Shown here in pieces: positions 317 through 46,217 of a stretch of DNA of 64,000 nt; position 1 is the stretch's first letter, and each line of letters starts with the position of its first letter. The notes under the pieces are model-generated. The model searched no databases and had not been told where the DNA came from. It worked only from the letters and a program-made list of their open reading frames with translations. Source of the DNA: Bryoerythrophyllum caledonicum (taxonomy: Eukaryota; Streptophyta; Bryopsida; Pottiales; Pottiaceae); contig OZ020526.1 of assembly GCA_963971425.1 (NCBI GenBank), forward strand, positions 6,661,976 to 6,725,975, given 5' to 3'. The position numbers and the translations under genes were made by a program.

Positions 317-932
317 CCCGGTCACTACAGTCAATCCGGGTTCGCGGTGTCAGGGCCCGGTTTTAGCCCTGTCACCGCGAAGACCGGCCCTTCTCCCCAA
401 GCGCCTTTTCGCCTCCTTCCCACGATAACTGCCACTCTCGCCCTCAATTATTTCGCGCTGCCCGTCTCTCTTTTCGGCACTTCTCGCCGAAAAGTCCCTT
501 CGCCCCCGCCTTCTCCGGATGACCGAAGTCACCTTCTCGCCCCCGCCACGTGTACTCTAGAATGACCCGCCCTTCTCGGCGGATGCCGACGCGAAGTGTC
601 ATCCACATCGTTTCGTACTGCGCCGTCTTTCGCACGATCTATTGTGCCGTGTAGCACCTTGCCGGAAGGGGAGTGCTTGTCTCCGCGTGAATGGAGTTCC
701 TCGATCTCAATCTCCCCATCCAAGACAGGCCGAATGGGAATTCTGGCGAGACGGCGGCACCAACCGTTGCCGATAACGGGGCAGCAGGGAGGAAATGGAG
801 GCGTCAAGGGAGAAAGAAACCGGCTGGCGTGCGTGAGAAGGGGGTGGAGGACCTTGATGCTGCGTTCCGGGAAGGCCAGCATGCAGACTACCTGAAGAAA
901 CACGGTCACAAGGTTCTTCGGATGCGCGATTC
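317..932 (+). repeat. Left terminal inverted repeat of the MULE
   Basis: About 616 bp that match the reverse complement of 9671-10315, from CCCGGTCAc/gTACAGTCAA at the tip to ATGCGCGATTC at the inner end, with scattered differences and small indels. The tip itself contains a nested palindrome-like stretch around GGGCCCGGTTTTAGCCC. The first ~80 codons of the transposase (from 691) lie inside this repeat. Confidence 0.9.
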
Positions 933-3711
933 ATTACAGAACCCTCATCCAGGGATTTTGACGTGGAAATGTCTTAGGTGGAACATGGAGGCCGAGAATG
1001 ATACGAGGTTCGTAGACGATCCGCAATCATCGAAGAGGAAGCAGTCCAAGCTTATCGCCTACATTCCCTGGGATAGGGTCTCGGATTTCGTGGAGGGTGA
1101 GCAGTCTGGCCGAAAGGATGTAGAGACTACCTTCGTCCGCGACAAGAACGACCCCACAAACGTCGGCGAGAAGACGCACTATCGGTGGAACTGCCACATC
1201 GAGTACCAGCGGTAAGTGAATCACGACCTCTGATATCACATTCAATATACACGGTAGATCTGCTTATCGGCTGTGCCATTACATCTCTTCAGTACCGCAC
1301 GTATCTCTGATGGTCAACGCCGATAAGCAGATGGCGTTGTCAATACGGTCCCGAAGACATCAGGGACAAGATCCAAGCTATCACGCCCGAAATGACACCA
1401 ACGCCATCGAAATACAATCACAAAGGGAAACAACTTACGTCCGGCGCTGGCCAGAAAGGCCCTCGTGCCACTGATGCGAAGGAGGGGGGCTCTATGAAAG
1501 TGGGCTGCCAATGTCGATTCTACGTAAAGAGGTACTATTTTCTACCATATATCGCCGAGATAGGGTACTTTTGCTCGGAACATGTCGACACACAGGGCCT
1601 CATCGTCCACGATAAAGACAATGTGCAGAGGGGAAAGCTCCGCTTTCGGAAGTACATATCGGAGGAAGTAAGGCTTTGGGTTCGTAGGCAATTTGAAGAG
1701 CAAGTTCCGATGGCAGCTATAATACAGAAGCACCAGAAGCTGGTACTGAAGGCACGGGATGAGGGCACTCTTACGCCTTCTCGGGATTGTTTCCTTAGCA
1801 TGGAGGACATCCGCAACATATGCGGAGTCCGTGCGCAAGAACTATACAAGAAACACGACAACGACGCTGAGAGTGTGAGAATGTGGGTCCGAGAAAACCG
1901 AGGTACGGTTTTTTACTACGAAGACCCGGGCAGCAAGGTCGACGGAGTGCTGAATGCCGATAACGTACCCTTCGTAATTGGGATTCAAACCCCATTTCAG
2001 ATGCACATGATGCTGAAATACAGTCACGATAACATTATTGCTATAGACGGGACATTCGCAACGAACAACAAAAAGGTACACATACCTTTAACGTGCTCCA
2101 TGTAGGGTCCGTATAAAAATTAGGAGCACTCACTCCCATACCGCTTAATTCCTTGCTTGCGTGTCCAGTATCCGCTCTTCACGATGATGGTATTCGACGA
2201 GTGGAGAAACGGTGTTCCAGTGGCTTTCGTGATCACTGCGAAATCCAAACAAGTAGATCTCGTCCCTTGGATGCGCGCTCTGAACCAGAAGTTGGTGCAG
2301 ATAAGGCCGGACTGGAGACCCACTGCCTTTGTACTTGACGACGCCGATAATGAGATCAACTCTCTTCGGTAAGCAAGTTAGCATTCTTACGTTATCGGGT
2401 GACGGGCTTCAGCGAGTTGTACTTATCGGCGTGTCGGGTTATCGCAGGGAGGTTTGGCCGCACTTGCATCTATTTCTATGTCTCTGGCATGTTCGTCGAG
2501 CGTGGCAGAAGAATGCATGTGCTAAGTTGAAAGACATGGAGACGAGGGCCGGAGCTTTGCGAATTGTGGGCTCACTTATGTACGTATCAGAGACACCTAG
2601 TGACTTCCAAGACCCTTCGGCGAGAGCTCCCGGCGATAAGGTGTGGAATTTGGTAGAGTGGGTGCGGCACGTTTACGGCGAAGCTAAGGCTCTCTTGCCA
2701 GACGCTGATGCATACTGGAAGTACTTCGACAAGGAATGGCTCCCGAAAATCAAAATGTGGGTTGTGGGAGACCGGAAAATCCTCCATGCTGGCCAGGACA
2801 CCACTGCAGCGATCGAATCATACCATTCTAACATGAAAGCAGTGCTCCGGCAATCCAAAAGGAAGCTTATCGGCCGAAGGATGGACTGGCTTATTTATGA
2901 GCTCACTGGAAATGTCATCGAGAAGTATGATTACAGTCACTGGTGTAAGCTAAACGGTTTTATAAAGAACAAGAGGCAGCGGCAGATCATGGTCAATGCA
3001 ATCAACCAAGCAAACACAATTCCCGATAATGTGGTCACCTTGCCCGAGTGGTCGGGAGGTCCTGCATACGTTAAATCCTCAAATAGGAGACACATTACGT
3101 ATGCGGTATACAATCCATGCACCGAATGGGCCGTCTGCCAATGTGTTCATTTCCAGAAAGGTAACATCTGTAAGCACCAGGTTAAGGTCCTGAAAATGAC
3201 AAGACCTGACCTGGCGGAGGGCAAAATTGCTAGATATCTGGGCTCCCTTCGCGGCACAATCCAAGGAGGAATGACGAATCTTCTCCGCCAAGACAATGGT
3301 CGACACCCGAATACCGAGGGCTTCCCCGATAATGATGTTCCCTCCGATACCGAAGCCGGAGATGTAACCCCAGTGACTTCCAACCTTCGAGAATTAGGGG
3401 AGACATGGGTATGCGACTTTGATCGTATGCATCAGCTTGTCCTGAAGCTACTCGAGAAGGCTTATCGCCAACCGTTGCTAGCAAGACACTTGGATGCAGC
3501 TTTGCGCAACACCGACGCCACCCTCTCAAGGTTGGAGGCTGAAATCGAAGCCGGAATGCTTCATCCACTCCAGGATATAGCTGCACCGCTCCCCACAAAT
3601 GAGGACGGTCTTGGAATGAGGCTCCGAAGGTTGCATGACTTCCTGGATTCCAGAGGTTTTCGGGTGAGGTCCGTTCCACCTAGCGAAAGACTAACTCAAG
3701 AAACGACTTAG
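691..3711 (+). CDS. MULE transposase (four exons)
   Basis: DDE transposase that would cut and insert the element by acting on its TIRs in the nucleus. Exons 691-1211, 1331-2075, 2169-2368 and 2448-3711 join in phase through GT..AG introns to give 909 residues with no stop. The start is the ATG at 691, opening with MEFLDLNL. A Cys/His cluster lies near C233, C235, C255 and H258 (WRKY-GCM1/FLYWCH-like, as in FAR1/MULE proteins). Catalytic candidates are D413 in AIDGTFAT, D479 or D480 in FVLDDADN, and E612 in AAIESYH. A SWIM zinc finger (CxC..CxH) sits at 719-732. All these are expected of the MULE family. The N-terminal ~80 codons overlap the left TIR, so the right TIR holds a decayed copy of them. 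Exon limits are predicted by eye. Confidence 0.88.
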
Positions 3712-4088
3712 GTTATCGGCTCCGATGTGGATGAGTATAAAGGGCAGAGGATTTCAGCTACAAAGCTGCACCGATAACCATTAGTAATCTTATCGGTAGA
3801 ATACTGCCGATAAGATGCTCTTAGATTAAGTTCCATGCATCGGCTGAAATTTCCACTGAAGTGATATTTCTTTAGTTTGAAAGTTAAAACTCAACATTCA
3901 ATATAATCGGCAAAGACTGGATTTTAAGTTCCGCTTACAAGCCTCTGCAAGGGGGTTCCAAAATCCGTTTATGTACGCTATCGAAAAAATTGTCATTTAC
4001 AATGAATGAAATATACAACATCGGCATCCTATTAAACTGTACAAATTCCTGGAGTCTATCGACTATGTACAACACCCCCCCTTATCGC
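3712..4088. other. Shared 3' region between the two convergent MULE genes
   Basis: Non-coding stretch between the transposase stop (3709-3711) and the ULP1-like gene stop (4089-4091, on the other strand). It holds four CCGATAA/TTATCGG heptamers within the first 100 bases and presumably both polyadenylation regions. No other gene is seen. Confidence 0.6.
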
Positions 4089-7000
4089 CTACTTCTTCGT
4101 CTTGGTGGTGCCCTTCGGTTTTCTCGTTTTTTTCAGGCTTTTCGGCGCGGTTGACTTTTTCCGCCTTCCTCGAGTCACTGGTGGGTTTGTGAGCACGTTG
4201 AAGCCCTGAAGATCACGATCCCCCACTATCTCCGAAATACCAAGAACTGGGACTTCCTTCTTCTTCACTGTCTCTGTACCGGCTTCCACGAAAACTACGT
4301 CCGGACTTCCGCTTCCGAACTCCACCGTATCCTGACCACATAGATTAAGGGCATCGTGGAACGGAAGCGGTGCGACAATCTCCGTATACAGCGCTTGCAT
4401 GAACCATCGGTACGCCTTCTTCTCGTCCCAGTCCAGATATTTGGTCTCCGTCACGGTCTTCTCCTCCGCCTCTTTGCGTCCACCGCGTGGGATCAGGTAC
4501 TGCCAGAAGCCCAAGCCTGCCATGAAACCACACTCCCAGCTTTTTTTCTGACTAGGCAAAGGCAACCTTATCGGCGATCGACTCTGCCATTCAGTCCAAC
4601 TCCGAGATCCGATCCTCACGCCCTTCGCGGTTGCCCATCCCATGTGCACAAGGAAGATGAAGTTGTTCACTTCCCGACCCTTGTGCATGCCTTTCGCTGG
4701 GTCCAGGTGATACGTTCGCCTTTGCTCCACGACGAATACGCTCCAGTGACCCTTATCGTGGTAAGGGACGAGAAGGGTATTCGGCGTCTTGGTGGTGCTA
4801 CGGAACGAGCGGCTGAGAAAGCTCACGATGTCATCCCAACCCTTCGCTTCATCCGCCAGATAGCACTGCAAAGTAGCCGATAACCAGTTGTGCGTGTGAT
4901 GATACTGGATTCGAACATGCTCCTTCGCACGGTAGACGACATGCCTAAGGATGAAATCCAGAAATGTGCCTTCCATTTCCCGCTTGTCCTTTAGCACGCA
5001 ATGCCAGTCCTGTAGTGCGAGCGAGACATCCACGGCTTGCCGGAGGTCTGGACCGAAAAACCTCATACCTCCAGTCAGGTCCTTCGGGTGAATAAAATGA
5101 GGCCTGCAATTCAGAAGAAAGCGGACGTTAGACAACAGGTGATGATAAACAGTAGGTGTCAGAGAACACGATAACATAGACGACGACACTCACCGCCGCA
5201 TTAGGACCTCTACAATAATGTCGAGGTTCTTCTCTATCATGGATGCGTCATGCTCCTCGGCTTCGTAGCAGAGCGAGGGCTCTTTCTCCCAGGACACACA
5301 GTCTGACGTACATACTCCGCGGTTCTCCTTCGACATGCACGTATACGCCGCCTTCTGTCCTTCCCTTCTGTTCATAACACGCTCTTCGAGTCCAGGATAA
5401 ACCCAAATACTAGACATCCCAGATTCCTGTGCTTCCTTGATAAAGCGCAATGCCGGTCTGATCTCCTCGGGGTCCATCTCCTTTGGAGAAGGGTTATCGG
5501 GCTCTTGCGGAGGAGGAGCCTGAACGGGTCCTGGCGGAGGAGCAGGCATATCGAGCTCTGGCGAAGGAGCAGGCTTATCGGGCTCAAATACTAGAACAGG
5601 GCTATCAGGATCTGGCACTGAAGCAGGCTCAACGGGTTCTGGCGGACTAGCATGGTTCTCGGGCTCTGGCGGGGTAGCAGGGTTCTCGGGCTCTGGCGGG
5701 CTAGCAGGGTTCTCGGGCTCTGGCGGGTTCTCGGGCTCTGGCGGAGGAGCAGGGTTATCGGGCCCTGGCGGAGAAGCGTAATCGGAGTCCGGAGAGGGAG
5801 CCTTCTCTGGGATTGGATGACTTTCGAAGGGTGTCACGGAAGGCGCCTCGGGAACCACCGGGGGACTGTCAATAGAGTCCAGGTTTTCAATACCTTGACT
5901 CGACAGAGGGAACGATAGACGGTGGGGTTTAATGCCGGGTTCCGTCTCCCCCGTACCCCCAAACACAACATGCTGAAGAGGGGTGTCGAATTGAGATAGC
6001 CCCATCAGCGACTGTGAAGACTCCGGAAAGCCGAGGGTAGGGTCATTCATAGCTTGTGTCCACGAAAACTCCATGGGAGATGGGTTATCGGCGGGACGGC
6101 TCGGTGACTTCACCGTTGTAGAAGCGGGCTCTTCCTGGACGCTATCGGGAACACCTCCCTGACGTATTTCGTCGCTAGGCCCCTCTTGTGCTTCCTCCGT
6201 AACTTCGTCCATACACTTGTCGGGGAATCCTTCGTCTTCGTTACTCCCCGGGAACCGATTCTGGACGCGGAATTCATTCGAGGTTCCTTCGTCCATGTGA
6301 AGGAGGGTGGCTGCACCCTCGAGGTCCCTTGTTCGGATAGACGTCTCCCGCCGAATTTCGTCATGTGAAGTCACTGGATGCCCTTCTCGCCGATCCCACT
6401 CTCTTTTTACCAGACGCGACACGGCGTTCTTGCAATCTGCCTCTGCAAGATCCCTTTTGCGTGCCCCGGTAGGATCTACAGTGCCTGCAAAAGCCTTGTC
6501 GTTAGTCACAGGAAAATAACGGAGATACCAAGAATGAGGAAGAAAACAGTTAGATGAATGACGGGGTTATCGGATAAATCTTACGTGGAACGTAGCCGGC
6601 ATACATGAAGTCCAGATCCTCCCTTGCCAAGCAGTTCTCGTCCAGGGTATTCCAGTGTTCGTAGGTACCCTTATCAGCAGCACACCACTGTCGAACGAAA
6701 TCCTCTGGATGACTCCTTGCCGTGTCCACGACAGTGCGAGCATGGACCATTTCGATGAAGCGCAACACAGAATCTTGCCCGCCGTTCTTATTATCGCGGA
6801 GCCGCGAGAACGCCGCCGAGAACGGGAGGTGCATATCGGATGCGTCCTTTCCGAAGAGGAAGGGACTCAGGACTTCATACATTTGAGACGGCCCATCCCA
6901 ATTTTCCACTGGAGCGTCCAAGTACAATTCAATGCTGGCAGGCCCGGGGATTACGCTAGGGTTGCACATATTCCGGCCCCTGAAAAACAACGGAGTCAAG

Positions 7001-9138
7001 TAAACCGATAAGGGACGATAAGAGACGATAAGAGACGATAAGGGACGATAAGGGACGATAAGAGACGATAAGGGACTATGAGAGACGATAAGGGGCGAGA
7101 AGACACGATAAGGGACAAGTTTGTGGCGAGAAGGAAAAACTTACACCCGCGAGAACCCGTTGCAAACGAAGTAACACTTCAACATCTTAGCTGGAGTCGG
7201 AGACGGGGCAATGTCGATTCTGATAGAAATTAGACGGTGCACGACATCTCGAGCCTCGTCAATGTTGTGCATCCATGGCAGTGGGGGCAGCAATGGTCAA
7301 AGAATCTTGTTCATCGCGCAATACCCGAAGAGATTGTTGAAGTCCCATCGAATAGCCTCTGTCTCGACCGCCCTTTCGGCATCAAATCTACTCATCTCCA
7401 TCGTGACTAACTTCTCCCTGCACCGCTTTTGTTTGTCGTTTTTGGCCTGCAAAGCCGCTTCTAACTTGACGCACTCCAACATATGCGTCATGTATGCCCA
7501 CGTTCCTCTCGATGCCTCTGTCCAAACCTCTTTCGTTGTACTGTAATCCGGATTCTTTGCTAGATTGCAAAGGCTTGACAACTGTTGAAGCGAAACAGGG
7601 TTATCGTCGAAGCCGACCCCTTCGGAAATGCAGGCACCGAGAGCCTGGTGGAACCTCCCCTGGCTGCCTCCAGACTCCACCAAGGACAAGACGTACTTCA
7701 ACAGCTCATCTTCGGAATGTAAACTCCCCATCGTGATACTGTCGAGCAGACCATGCTTGAGGAGTAGATATAGCGGCGTTATCGGTACCTTCCTCTCGGG
7801 GGTGGGCACCAATTTCAACGGGAAAAGGCGCGCAACGTCCTCCTGCACCTGCCGAAACATCTCGGCCCTCTCCGACTCCAAAGCTTGCTCCCTGCTACCT
7901 TTCGCCGGGAGAATGAGGCGCTTATCGGGATTCGCACCATCATTAGAGCCTAACCGAAGTATACTGGCCAATGTCAGCGGCGGTCGCTGTTCGTTCTGGG
8001 CCGAGGATTGGGGGGATTCGTGCGAGGTTATCGGCGTTCCTTCGTCAGAGTCGGAGGGTCTCTCGGCATTACTCGTCTCTCTGAACTGCTGTTGCACCGG
8101 TGGGGATCGATGCCTTCTCGCCATCGCGGTCTCTTCCACAGACATTCCCGTAAGCCTTTTCGCCGTTGCTGGGGGCCAGAATGCCTTCTTCGAGGACTCT
8201 TCAAATCTCGCCTTCTTCGTGGCCTCTTCAGCTTGTGCCACCTTCTTCGGTACATTCTGCTTCGCAAGCTCCGCCTTCCGGAGGACGATGGAGGAATCCC
8301 TCTTGGGCGCCGGCGCGAGTGCGGACTTCCGGACTTTCGACATCGGGTTCTCGGCACCGGAATTCCTAGAGGCATCATCCCCGGACGGAAGACCGCCCTT
8401 CTCGCCGTGCACAGTCAGAGTCCGTGCGTTATCGGCCTCATGATCTGTGCTGTGATCTCCTCCCGACTCTGCCGAGGAAGTATCGTCACTCGACATAGCT
8501 TTCGGGGGCGGAGGTCTTTTCCGAGAAGCCGCCGCGATACGCTTTTGCGGAGGGCCCTCCTCTGACAGCTTCTTCCCGCGCTTAATTCAACGTCGACTGT
8601 TCGGTTCCTCCTCATTATCGGCACCCTTCCGAGGCCTCCTCTTCGTGGCTATCGGCTCTATGGTGCCGAATACCTGAATTGCATCTTCAGCCGACTGGCA
8701 ATCCCGAAGTCGTGCCACAAAGTTCGCCACATCCCTGACGCCCAAATTGGGATACGACGGCATCTTCACGCCCTCCTTCCCCTTCCCTTTGCACAATGCA
8801 TGGTTCCGGTGGAGGTTGAACCTGTGCTTCTGGTGCGTCGTGTTGCAATGAATGCACAGTATCTGCTTGGGGCCGGTTTGTCCAGGCGGTACGATGGGCG
8901 AGTCCGGTCCATGCAGCTCCAGGATAAGGTCCCTCGCCTCCATCACCTCCCAGCTATCGCGCCAAATGTGGTCGTTCTCAATGACGAATAGCTGCTCGAT
9001 CCTCCCCGTTTTCTTGTTGTAGGTGGGCGGAATCCCTTTCCTGTTCTCCACCGGGATCTCATCAAACAGTGGCTTGCAGAAACACACCGGCCGCTTCGGC
9101 ATTTTTACGGTCGTGCGAGGAAGGACATTGCCGAACAT
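4089..9138 (-). CDS. ULP1-like cysteine protease gene of the MULE (four exons, two in-frame stops)
   Basis: Predicted exons (- strand) 9138-7145, 6979-6585, 6484-5194 and 5103-4089 join in phase through GT..AG introns, about 1,560 codons. The last exon has the C48/ULP1 catalytic set: His in DKGHWSVFVV (~1346), Asp in YHLDPAKG (~1361), Gln and Cys in QKKSWECGF (~1412 and ~1418). ULP1 proteases cut SUMO-type conjugates; the role in MULEs is unknown. Exon 1 begins MFGNVLPRTT and has a BED-like C-x2-C..H..C pattern (C95, C98, H113, C116). Exon 3 has a proline repeat. Exon 1 carries two in-frame TGA codons (8587-8589 and 7297-7299) with no nearby GT donor that would remove them. The gene may therefore be dead, or use internal starts such as the ATG at 8496. 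Confidence 0.75.
5500..5775 (-). repeat. Proline/glutamate repeat inside the ULP1-like gene
   Basis: A degenerate tandem repeat of roughly 24-33 bp. On the - strand it encodes blocks such as SPPEPENPA and TPPEPENHA, repeated about eight to ten times within exon 3. It lies between a low-complexity Ser/Pro region and the protease exon. It probably forms an unstructured spacer. Confidence 0.8.
7004..7119. repeat. 10-bp tandem array (CGATAAGRGA) in an intron of the ULP1-like gene
   Basis: Some ten to eleven head-to-tail copies of CGATAAGGGA or CGATAAGAGA fill most of the first intron (7144-6980, - strand). One copy reads GCGAGAAGAC, linking the array to the other recurring element motif GGCGAGAAG. 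The unit is a variant of the CCGATAA heptamer found throughout the element. Confidence 0.9.
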
Positions 9139-9670
9139 GAAACCTTATCGCAAGAAACGATTATCGGGAACCCTAAAACTCTTAAACCCTAAACCTGGAC
9201 GCTTTGCAAAATTTTCTACACCTTCACACAGCTTACTTTCCAACGCCCCACATTTGAAACGGAATGGAAGAAGGACCGCCCGTATGCATCACCAAAAAGA
9301 AATGGAAAGTAAGAATGACGGAGAGCTTACCGAAATGGAATTAAATAAAAAGCAAGAAAGGCAGGGAACTTACCGAAAAGTTTAGTCGGCGATCGTTGAC
9401 GCAGAGGCTTGAAAATCCTGGAGTTTTGAAGCAGCGATCGTTGACGCAGAGCTTGAAGATCCTGGATATGTCGCTAGAGGGCAAAAAACACTGTTCGAAA
9501 GTGCTGGAAATGGTGCCGCCACACAAAACTTTGCCATGCCTGGATTAGGGTTTCACGTTGATGGTGATGGTGATGGCGATGATGATTATTGCCTACGCCG
9601 CCTAAACCGATTAGCCTGGACCTACAATCTGAGGGAATATCAGCGATAAGCTTGGATTGCGTTACTCTTC
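9139..9670 (-). promoter_or_regulatory. Presumed promoter and 5' leader region of the ULP1-like gene
   Basis: No gene is evident here between the ULP1-like start (9138) and the inner end of the right TIR (9671). It holds AAACCCTAAA-type sequence near 9175, a trinucleotide tract GATGGTGATGG near 9560, and an imperfect direct repeat GCGATCGTTGACGCAGAG at about 9391 and 9435. The promoter role is inferred only from position. Confidence 0.4.
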
Positions 9671-10315
9671 GAATCGCGCATCCGAAGAACCTTGTGACCG
9701 TGTGTCTTCAGGTAGTCTGCATGCGGGCCAAACCCTAATCGCGGCATCAAGGTCCTCCAGCCTCTTCTCTTGCACGCCAGCTTCTTTCTTTCTCCCTTGA
9801 CGCCTCCAATTCCTCCCTGCTGCCCCGTTATCGGCAACGGTTGGTGGCGCCGTCTCGCTAGAATCTCCATTCGACCTGCCCTGTATGGGAAGATTGTGAT
9901 CGAGGAACTCAATTCAGGCACAGACAATCACTCCTCTTCCGAAAGGATTCTACACGGCACAATGATCGTGCCAAAGACGGCGCCGTACGAAACTGTGTGG
10001 ATGGCAGTTTGGGGCTGCCGAGAAGGGCGGGTCATTCTGGAGTACACGTGTCGGGCCGATAAGGAGACTTCGGTGATCCGAAGAAGGCGGGGGCGAGAAG
10101 GTGACTTCGGTGATCCGGAGAAGGCGGGGGCGAAGGGACTTTTCGGGGAGAAGTGCCGAAAAGAGAGACGGGCAGTGCGAAATAATTGAGGGCGAGAGTG
10201 GCAGTTATCGTGAAAGGAGGCGAAAAGGCGCTTGGGGAGAAGGGCCGGTCTTCGCGGTGTCAGGGCTAAAACCGGGCCCTGACACCGCGAACCCGGATTG
10301 ACTGTACTGACCGGG
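9671..10315 (-). repeat. Right terminal inverted repeat of the MULE
   Basis: About 645 bp, the inverted partner of 317-932. It includes a decayed copy of the transposase N-terminus on the - strand (for example GRMEILARRRHQPLPITG-like frame shifts of the left copy). It is slightly longer than the left repeat because it holds a second copy of the GCGGGGGCGAGAAGG block near 10070-10140. Confidence 0.9.
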
Positions 10316-10325
10316 TAACTAGGAG
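10316..10325. repeat. Right target-site duplication of the MULE
   Basis: TAACTAGGAG, identical to 307-316. Confidence 0.9.
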
Positions 10326-21492: not shown

Positions 21493-22076
21493 CAGGGTTG
21501 TTCGGTCGTCCGTCCGTCCGGTAGTGTCCGTCCGTCAAGATGTCCGTCCGATAGAGGCTGCTGTCCGTCCGATAAGGGTCAACCCTAGTTTGACCATGAC
21601 TCGAGGTAAATTAATTTACCCACTGCCACGAAGGCGACTACGTGGCTGACACGTCGTCAACAGGGTCGCGCGCGTGCGGACAGGGGGCGGGCGCGTGAAG
21701 GGGTCGGGCGCGTACGGAGATGGGCCGGGCGCATACTGAAGGGGCCGGGCGCGTGCGGAGATGGCTGGGCGCGCACTGAAGGGGTGGAGGACTAGGCGCG
21801 CACTGAAGTGGGGGAGGATTAGGCGCGTTCGTGGAGGGGGTTGGGCCTGGCGCGTGGCCTTTGGGGTCGCGCGCGTATGGGTATTGAATTTAGGGGTCGC
21901 GCGCGCTCTCTCACTTCTTAACATGCATGAGCTTCATATCGCAATGTGTATGAAAAATGTTAATCTTATATTTATCACGAGATGGGCAAAAAGCACCGTT
22001 ACATTACAATGCTAGTACGTATTGCAAAATGATCAACAATTGAAACCTTCACTATGAATACGCTAAGTCAAAATAT

Positions 22077-44640: not shown

Positions 44641-44905
44641 AAATTATTTAAAATTTACAATTTTTTTAAAATTTGCAATTTTTTTAAAATTTGCAATTTT
44701 TTTAAAATTTACGATTTTTTTAAAATTTACGATTTTTTTAAAATTTACGATTTTTTTAAAATTTACGATTTTTTTAAAATTTACGATTTTTTTAAAATTT
44801 ACGATTTTTTTAAATTTTAATTTTTTTTAAAATTTACAATTTTTTTAAAATTTACAATGTTTTTAAAATTTACAATTTTTTTTAAATTTACAACAATTTT
44901 TTTTA
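44641..44905. repeat. 18-bp tandem array (AAAATTTACGATTTTTTT-like)
   Basis: About 13-14 head-to-tail copies of an 18-bp unit, of which most central copies carry ACGATT and the outer ones ACAATT or GCAATT. Because 18 is a multiple of three it creates a meaningless open frame of FLKFTI repeats. Central copies are nearly identical, indicating recent expansion. Confidence 0.9.
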
Positions 44906-45073: not shown

Positions 45074-46217
45074 CTACACTAAAGTTGATATTTAGTGTTT
45101 GCAACACTAATTACAAACTCAAATACTAAATGTCAATACCTACTAGTATAACAAACATTAAATGTCAACTTGAACACCAATTGTCTATAACAGTAAAGTT
45201 TTGGTTGTTGTTACATTTTACATGCTGAAATTAGTGTTAGATTTCACACACACATACTTGGATTACATACACACAAGCATACTTAGATTACACACACAAG
45301 CATACTTAGATTACACACACAAGCATACTTAGATTACACACACAAGCATACTTAGATTACACACACAAGCATACTTAGATTACACACACAAGCATACTTA
45401 GATTACACACACAAGCATACTTAGATTACACACACAAGCATACTTAGATTACACACACAAGCATACTTAGATTATACACACGCACACACATACTTAGATC
45501 TCATACATAAATAGGAAGCAATTGAAACCTAAAACGACCGCAATGCATCAAACATGAAAACCTACCACAATTTCAATTTCAATGCAAATTAGAGTAAGAT
45601 TGCACCAAAAAACCCTCAAATATCCAACCTCAATTTTCTACCGTCAAAAAATTCCAAGTTTGAGAATTCCACGAAGACTCGCTTCTCTTCTCAGGTTCTA
45701 TTTCTCAGGTTTATTGTTCTTTAAATTGGGAGATTTCATCTTATACATTTGGTGGATCATGAGCAGAGAGCGTTCATTTGCTCTAAATTTCTTCTTCAAG
45801 TGTGTGTAAGAGCGTTATCGTTTGTAATAGAGGAGAGTGAGTTGTGAGGGATGGATCTCTTATGAATTTGGCGCGCCTTTGAAGCATGCAAGTCAAGAGG
45901 ATGTAGAGTTGAGAGTCATACTTGATGATATTTGTGCCTATCTGAATGGGATAAAAAAAACATGGTTTATTGCAAGTACAGAGGTGAAACCCAACAAAAC
46001 CAAAAATGCAACAGCTTCCATCCTCCACATCTCAGCAATAGATCTCACTCAAGGCGGCAACAATCCATGTTTGCAACAAAACCAGAGAATGAGCAATTGT
46101 ACTCATGTCAAACTCAACAACAATCAGTACACTTCTTGTCAACAAATTTGTAAAACTAAGGTAGTAGGGGTAACAACACTAATGGTCACACAACACTAAA
46201 CATCAACTTTAGTGTAG
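45074..46217 (+). mobile_element. Small inverted-repeat element with TA target (Tc1/mariner-type MITE)
   Basis: Left CACTAAAGTTGATATTTAGTG after TA and right CACTAAACATCAACTTTAGTG before TA form inverted tips of about 30 bp, suggesting a TA target duplication. It encloses a 23-bp tandem array and an open frame of 120 codons (45837-46199) without a recognised family. Confidence 0.5.
45255..45500. repeat. 23-bp tandem array
   Basis: About ten copies of CTTAGATTACACACACAAGC followed by ATA, almost identical to each other, inside the small inverted-repeat element at 45074-46217. The array degrades into CACACA dinucleotides at both edges. Confidence 0.92.

Follow-up and report, generated by a model that had tools for sequence, protein, structure and literature searches.

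Introduction

The TNPA protein of Spm/En and the Ac transposase each bind many copies of a short word within the element that encodes them; these words crowd the element ends, and TNPA also affects methylation. Among Mutator-like elements (MULEs), those that carry a Ulp1-type gene go by the name CUMULE. The closest described systems are the VANDAL21 and VANDAL6 elements of Arabidopsis, in which VANC proteins exert sequence-specific anti-silencing (PMC5735166, PMC10398659): VANC21 binds YAGTATTAY and the targets of VANC6 carry AGTTGTCC/AC, each word being repeated in its own elements, and the VANC genes evolve fast beside the more conserved VANA (PMC5735166). VANDAL terminal inverted repeats (TIRs) are described as absent or as short and degenerate, though some relatives possess TIRs (PMC6446971). 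According to a 2026 review, Ulp1-carrying VANCs act likewise, the motifs recognised by KIU-carrying Vandals lie in non-coding regions, and MULEs with a Ulp1-type gene comprise Kaonashi/KIU in Arabidopsis along with elements reported from melon, rice and grapevine (PMC13317346). Here we describe a complete MULE of 9,999 bp (positions 317–10315, plus strand) in a 64,000-nucleotide stretch of Bryoerythrophyllum caledonicum (contig OZ020526.1 of a 437 Mb genome assembly; the window, hereafter, is that whole stretch). One short word fills this element from end to end, coding exons included, and is nearly absent from the three loci examined of related MULE families in the same genome.

Results

The element holds 30 copies of the heptamer CCGATAA (TTATCGG on the opposite strand), and the other 54 kb of the window two, at 21569 and 25951; its core CGATAA occurs 53 times in the element compared with 7 in the rest. 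The original prediction, which was read by eye, had put the heptamer at about 30 exact copies in 10 kb, with only two elsewhere (near 21575 and 25951) and one or two expected by chance, and the counts bear it out. Dinucleotide-preserving shuffles in 500-bp blocks (n = 300) yielded CCGATAA with a mean of 1.06 and a maximum of 6, the best of any 7-mer being 11, while a trinucleotide Markov model, which ranks CCGATAA first of all 7-mers by z, expects 1.27; the CGATAA expectation is 4.2 per element (∼0.4 per kb). Restricting the count to copies separated by more than 60 bp gives CCGATAA a -log10 P of 23.0, compared to 4.0–7.6 for the best 7-mer in five 10-kb pieces from the rest of the window, and no other 7-mer in the element is equally enriched. 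Shuffling among synonymous codons, suggested at the outset as a check, has the same outcome: the 11 CGATAA of the transposase gene (shuffled mean 2.9) and the 14 of the second gene (shuffled mean 2.9) were each reached in 0 of 1000 shuffles. Chance and codon use are thus ruled out as the source of the word by the dinucleotide and the synonymous-codon shuffles.

The enrichment first described for a heptamer is real, and the word itself is not exactly a heptamer. Alignment of the 53 sites reveals a motif wider than the hexamer, approximately S-V-CGATAA-S, in which the preceding base is C in 30 sites, A in 15, G in 8 and never T, and the following base is G in 26, C in 20, T in 6 and A in 1, hence G or C in 46 of 53. 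The positions next outward are mostly G or C, and the flanks beyond are unrelated. One-base neighbours are enriched as well (ACGATAA 15, GCGATAA 8, CCGAGAA 12, CCGAAAA 9), with TCGATAA absent. What had been taken for a separate second word, GGCGAGAAG, is present in 9 copies and conforms to this pattern with G in place of T; because CGAGAA outside the arrays shares the S-V-word-S context (18 of 25), GGCGAGAAG can be read as the motif's G form. It is also found inside and beside a 10-bp tandem array (7094, 7125). The suggestion that the word grew by short duplication holds only for that array (7006–7116) and for a 27-bp repeat (5485–5777): the 41 CGATAA copies that lie elsewhere have unrelated flanks, and a pure duplication origin is thereby ruled out for these copies.

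All compartments named in the original prediction, that is, TIRs, exons of both genes, introns, leaders and the 3' region, were found to contain copies. The density per kb is highest in introns and intergenic DNA, and still several-fold enriched in exons. For the transposase gene it amounts to 17.2 CGATAA in introns and 4.0 in exons, for the second gene to 8.2 (array collapsed) and 3.0, and elsewhere to 13.3 in the intergenic 3'–3' region (3712–4088; sites at 3713, 3772, 3790, 3808 and 4082), 4.9 in the right leader and TIR, and 2.6 in the left TIR and leader. A transposase intron of just 79 bp (2369–2447, plus strand) accommodates three CGATAA, at 2392, 2423 and 2439. The modelled exons hold 25 of the 53 sites, 11 in the transposase gene, where all four exons contain the word, and 14 in the second gene. 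The motif is used in both orientations. Exon sites are mostly sense (8 of 11 in the transposase gene, 13 of 14 in the second gene) and mostly placed in a D-N/D-K frame (8 of 11 and 10 of 14); the transposase-intron sites are antisense in 4 of 5 cases, the 10-bp array is antisense to the second gene, and the intergenic sites lie on both strands. With arrays collapsed, the 45 sites are spaced more evenly than random (coefficient of variation, CV, P 0.0018), the longest gap is 595 versus 962 expected (P 0.011), and the evenness persists when sites within 30 bp are merged (P 0.012). Parts of two close copies, which are not independent, give P 0.033 (L002) and 0.006 (L003).

The word is a feature of the family and not of MULEs in general, as follows from three loci of the same genome, one per related MULE family (L067, L068 and L069). 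The sister transposases show 31–37% identity over the longest aligned segments (E 1e-49 to 1e-104), and the loci have 1, 4 and 1 CGATAA per 9.5–9.9 kb. Families between these sisters and the element's own were not found in searches that scored the best candidates only. No word of comparable strength emerged from separated-copy scoring of the sister loci: CCTAAAC reached a -log10 P of 7.2 with 10 copies in L067, AGGCCA reached 5.8 with 21 separated copies in L068, and L069 had no word above its shuffles. Since pieces from the rest of the window attain 6.6 for 6-mers and 7.6 for 7-mers, no second dispersed-word family is claimed. CCTAAAC is among the top dispersed 7-mers of both L067 and L068, and AGGCCA/CAGGCCA, moderately over-used and dispersed in L068, is a possible, unproven family word. 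L067 (G000:C11:7082300–7092200) also contains an (ATTTGC)n/(ATTTCC)n array, several hundred bases long, at ∼4,690–5,390 in locus coordinates, between the transposase and the opposite-strand frames.

Beyond the transposase gene, the opposite strand carries open frames in two of the three sister loci. Compared with the second gene of the element, they match only marginally by BLASTP, at E 0.002 in a proline-rich stretch (perhaps an effect of composition) and at E 0.013 and 0.069 over a colinear middle part; one frame has a C2H2-like finger (PF13894, E 0.089). Were these frames homologous to the second gene, that gene would be evolving far faster than the transposase.

The element's family is large, with at least 99 transposase and at least 112 second-gene matches scored in the one genome. 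Genome-wide, same-direction pairs of CCGATAA within 30 bp number 574 versus 90 for the reversed pattern, and among the pairs listed, all from one contig, most appeared by eye to be flanked by the words of the element's family. A different repeat with paired CCGATAA (L045; seven places, by eye, among the matches listed) was set aside: its 8 kb contain 3 CCGATAA and do not match the element in DNA (E 1e-4) or protein (E 0.01) comparison, so the pair there lies inside another repeat. The relatives compared with the window copy are 96–98% identical over 5.2–9.4 kb aligned (L002–L005), 93% (L046), 91% over 5.7 kb (L044), 87% over 9.8 kb (L043) and 81% over 3.1 kb (L001). A lack of the motif in related elements had been named as evidence against function, and the family members compared do keep the word. 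CCGATAA is first, joint first or second among 7-mers in all seven long relatives (L002 23, L003 28, L004 22, L005 16, L043 28, L044 21, L046 38), its 28 copies in L003 ranking behind the 29 of the overlapping CGATAAG.

Site retention was assessed outside both arrays (7006–7116 and 5485–5785; in one comparison of relatives outside 7006–7116 only) with hexamers that also hold one CpG as the control. CGATAA was kept at 29 of 40 sites in L043, versus 1238 of 2574 for the control (P 0.002), and at 25 of 26 in L044, versus 799 of 1412 (P 1e-5). Outside the arrays, sites kept, lost and gained between window copy and relative number 29/9/9 for L043, 25/1/3 for L044 and 29/7/9 for L046, with gains of 2.2, 1.1 and 1.4, respectively, under shuffled substitutions; L043 and L046 gain more than the permutations, L044 does not (P 0.12). 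The sites that relatives have and the window copy lacks differ by various single or double substitutions, and the total number of sites stays level at 87–93% identity despite losses and gains. Among CpG-holding hexamers CGATAA ranks second of 22 for retention in L043, first of 5 in L044 and fourth of 21 in L046. Taken together, these comparisons provide consistent, moderate evidence that the motif is kept up in diverged copies, stronger for a steady total than for each site. The 27-bp repeat differs among copies, with three CGATAA in the window copy and eleven sites at successive 27-bp steps in L046. The observed/expected ratio of CpG (CpG o/e) is 0.91–1.00 in five family members or parts of members, compared to 0.51–0.74 in the three sister-family loci and 0.67 in the rest of the window, and fits reduced germ-line methylation.

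As regards the element itself, MULEs have target duplications of 8–11 bp and often long TIRs, and both are seen here. The 10-bp target-site duplication TAACTAGGAG is identical at 307–316 and 10316–10325, a perfect match on both sides with matching element ends, and the TIR arms align piecewise over ∼620 bp. The left TIR (317–932, plus strand) overlaps the start of the transposase gene and has CGATAA at 423 and 771; the right one (9671–10315, minus strand) has it at 9828, 10057 and 10205, and the pairs 423/10205 and 771/9828 take matching places. The modelled transposase gene is intact on the plus strand, its four exons (691–1211, 1331–2075, 2169–2368 and 2448–3711) joining into an open frame of 2,730 bases and 909 residues. 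Exon 3 matches the MULE domain PF10551 (E 0.011) and exon 4 is SWIM-like (E 0.054), both below the Pfam cut-off. Membership is further indicated by tblastn with the whole transposase, which matched 19 of the 20 loci picked by a genome search with PF10551 at E ≤ 0.001 (best 3e-38). Two loci on small contigs, L047 (G000:C340) and L048 (G000:C165), have the best MULE-domain scores and a CpG o/e of 1.3–1.4, above the other 18 MULE loci compared, and are possibly foreign DNA in the assembly.

The second gene (4089–9102, minus strand) converges on the transposase gene and is modelled with four exons totalling 4,647 bases. Its first exon (7147–9102) encodes, close to the N terminus, a putative C2HC/C2H2 zinc finger that was seen by eye and has no Pfam match; exon 2 is placed at 6592–6978; exon 3 (5195–6482) includes the proline-rich coding units of the 27-bp repeat, which have CCGATAA or CCGAGAA. 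The 10-bp array, CGATAAGRGA on the plus strand, lies in the modelled intron 6979–7146. The last exon (4089–5104) gives a weak Ulp1/C48-like match, with a Pfam E of 0.018 (below cut-off), a SENP2 match at E 0.05 and an H...D...Q...C pattern recognised by eye. GHW in this region is found in 31 of 36 loci and ECG in 36 of 36, some of the loci being one copy; the predicted structure of the exon was unusable (pLDDT, the model's confidence score, 33.7). A telo-box-like CCCTAAA occurs twice in the second-gene leader, at 9171 and 9187. The rest of the window has two neighbouring tandem arrays, at 44647–44893 (18 bp × 13.8) and 45237–45481 (23 bp × 10.7).

Discussion

Based on the evidence collected here, we give an even chance to the reading that S-V-CGATAA-S constitutes the sites of an element-specific protein, most probably the product of the second gene, in a VANC-like anti-silencing system. 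We infer each of its parts, namely protein binding, the second-gene product as the binder, and the anti-silencing effect. Preference for context outside the hexamer, together with otherwise unrelated flanks, is what would be expected of a binding motif. One DNA-binding protein would read the motif along the entire element, with a site or cluster every 220 bp or so, and once bound would maintain the chromatin of the element in an open, unmethylated state, holding off or removing silencing; the element's genes could then be expressed and the element could move. The second gene is the first candidate for encoding this protein because the word is family-specific, the partner gene may be fast-evolving and a zinc finger is putatively present. 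Of the several readings offered by the original prediction, two are best supported here: a protein's binding site all along the element, and an anti-silencing tag. They would become one reading if the protein were VANC-like.

A number of observations weigh against this explanation. Two in-frame stops, in the modelled first exon, break the second gene in the window copy. Among the four other copies examined, two have neither stop and two share one of them; the stop near 7299 is common to two diverged copies, and the gene model may consequently be wrong there. A three-row profile of the Ulp1-like domain recovers SENP2 only at E 0.15, the L044 piece of that domain has no Pfam match at E 1, and a Pfam scan of second-gene pieces, 7147–7297 not among them, found no DUF1985 at E 1. 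Retention in 29 near copies (644 of 692 versus 26248 of 29991 for CpG hexamers) comes from counts that are not independent, for near copies share history; that in L002–L005 (120 of 128 versus 6655 of 7666, P 0.017) is not significant under a stricter control (P 0.14), nor is retention significant in L046 (29 of 37 versus 1650 of 2425, P 0.21) or L001 (5 of 8 versus 323 of 786, P 0.29). Among all hexamers with at least 12 copies CGATAA ranks eighth of 54 in L043, first of 9 in L044 and eighth of 47 in L046, thus high without being unique, and in L043 the raw copy gain of other hexamers equals or exceeds its own. Neither L043 (P 0.27) nor L046 (P 0.060) shows significantly even spacing (30-bp merge, CV). 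C-to-T changes at the CpG of the motif make up the two most frequent kinds of loss, suggesting that some copies do become methylated, and the high CpG o/e may reflect recent spread alone.

The evidence for a binding site would hold equally if the site belonged to a GATA- or MYB-like transcription or chromatin factor of the host, exploited by the element to stay active with the second gene uninvolved, and GATAA cores are known host-factor sites. We consider this unlikely, given that the motif is nearly confined to the family (1, 4 and 1 CGATAA in the sister loci, 7 in the 54 kb of the rest of the window) and that AGATAA, GGATAA and TGATAA, which are near the usual host forms, number only 1, 3 and 3 in the element. 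Distinctly less probable is a transposase-binding site that has spread beyond the ends and serves transposition or self-regulation. The intact transposase frame and the matching sites of the two TIRs speak in its favour; however, the TIRs with their leaders (2.6 and 4.9 per kb) show no enrichment over the element's interior (exons 3–4, introns 8–17), and transposition alone provides no reason for 25 CGATAA in coding exons. Absence of function, the word having grown by short duplication, conversion or a coding preference for Asp-Asn and Asp-Lys in linkers, is quite improbable: it would account for the two true tandem arrays and for the D-N/D-K frame of most exon sites, but not for the unrelated flanks elsewhere, counts beyond every synonymous shuffle, the highest density in introns that make no peptide, or the varied substitutions by which sites of relatives differ from the window copy. 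Action of the motif in RNA (splicing, stability), to which the sense bias in exons might point, is very improbable and disfavoured by strand use outside exons, where no such bias is seen, and the exon bias itself may reflect only which peptides are tolerated.

Returning to the element-specific protein, a more far-reaching version can be formulated tentatively, and with doubt prevailing. Selection would have turned the whole body of the MULE, exons included, into a nearly regular lattice of protein sites, approximately one per nucleosome length, which the element's own protein, of a zinc-finger/Ulp1-like type without a match to the VANC domain, would read to achieve anti-silencing over genes and non-coding DNA alike. 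The footprint that sequence-specific anti-silencing would be expected to leave is readable here from DNA at very high contrast, in a large family and extending into coding sequence, and the element offers its protein–word pair as a testable candidate. As a method, the dispersed family-specific word could serve as a pointer to candidate anti-silencing systems in genomes that lack epigenetic data. In the literature searched there was no report of CCGATAA as an element word or of a MULE with site-filled exons, and a whole-word search for CCGATAA matched only work on bacterial flagellins.

Lastly, the comparison with known systems places the element as follows. Spm/En TNPA and Ac resemble it in the many copies of one short word; unlike those elements, this one is tiled over its whole length. 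A MULE transposase beside a second gene is shared with the Ulp1-type MULEs as reviewed (PMC13317346), and the last exon of that gene resembles Ulp1/C48; the weak domain match, the putative N-terminal zinc finger and the long TIRs set it apart. With VANC/VANDAL, as far as the cited accounts describe them, it has in common the MULE framework, a second gene beside the transposase, and a short family-specific word that is repeated through the element, partly in tandem arrays, and that sister families here lack. It differs in that the VANDAL word is non-coding, with exon probes bound much less, while 25 of the 53 sites here fall in modelled exons and the sites tile the whole element; in that DUF1985, named as the VANC domain (PMC5735166), was not found in the pieces scanned; in having long TIRs where those of VANDALs are absent or short and degenerate; and in a word that contains CpG. 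Given the missing DUF1985, the coding sites and the long TIRs, membership in VANC is not claimed; the element looks as if it worked in a VANC-like way.

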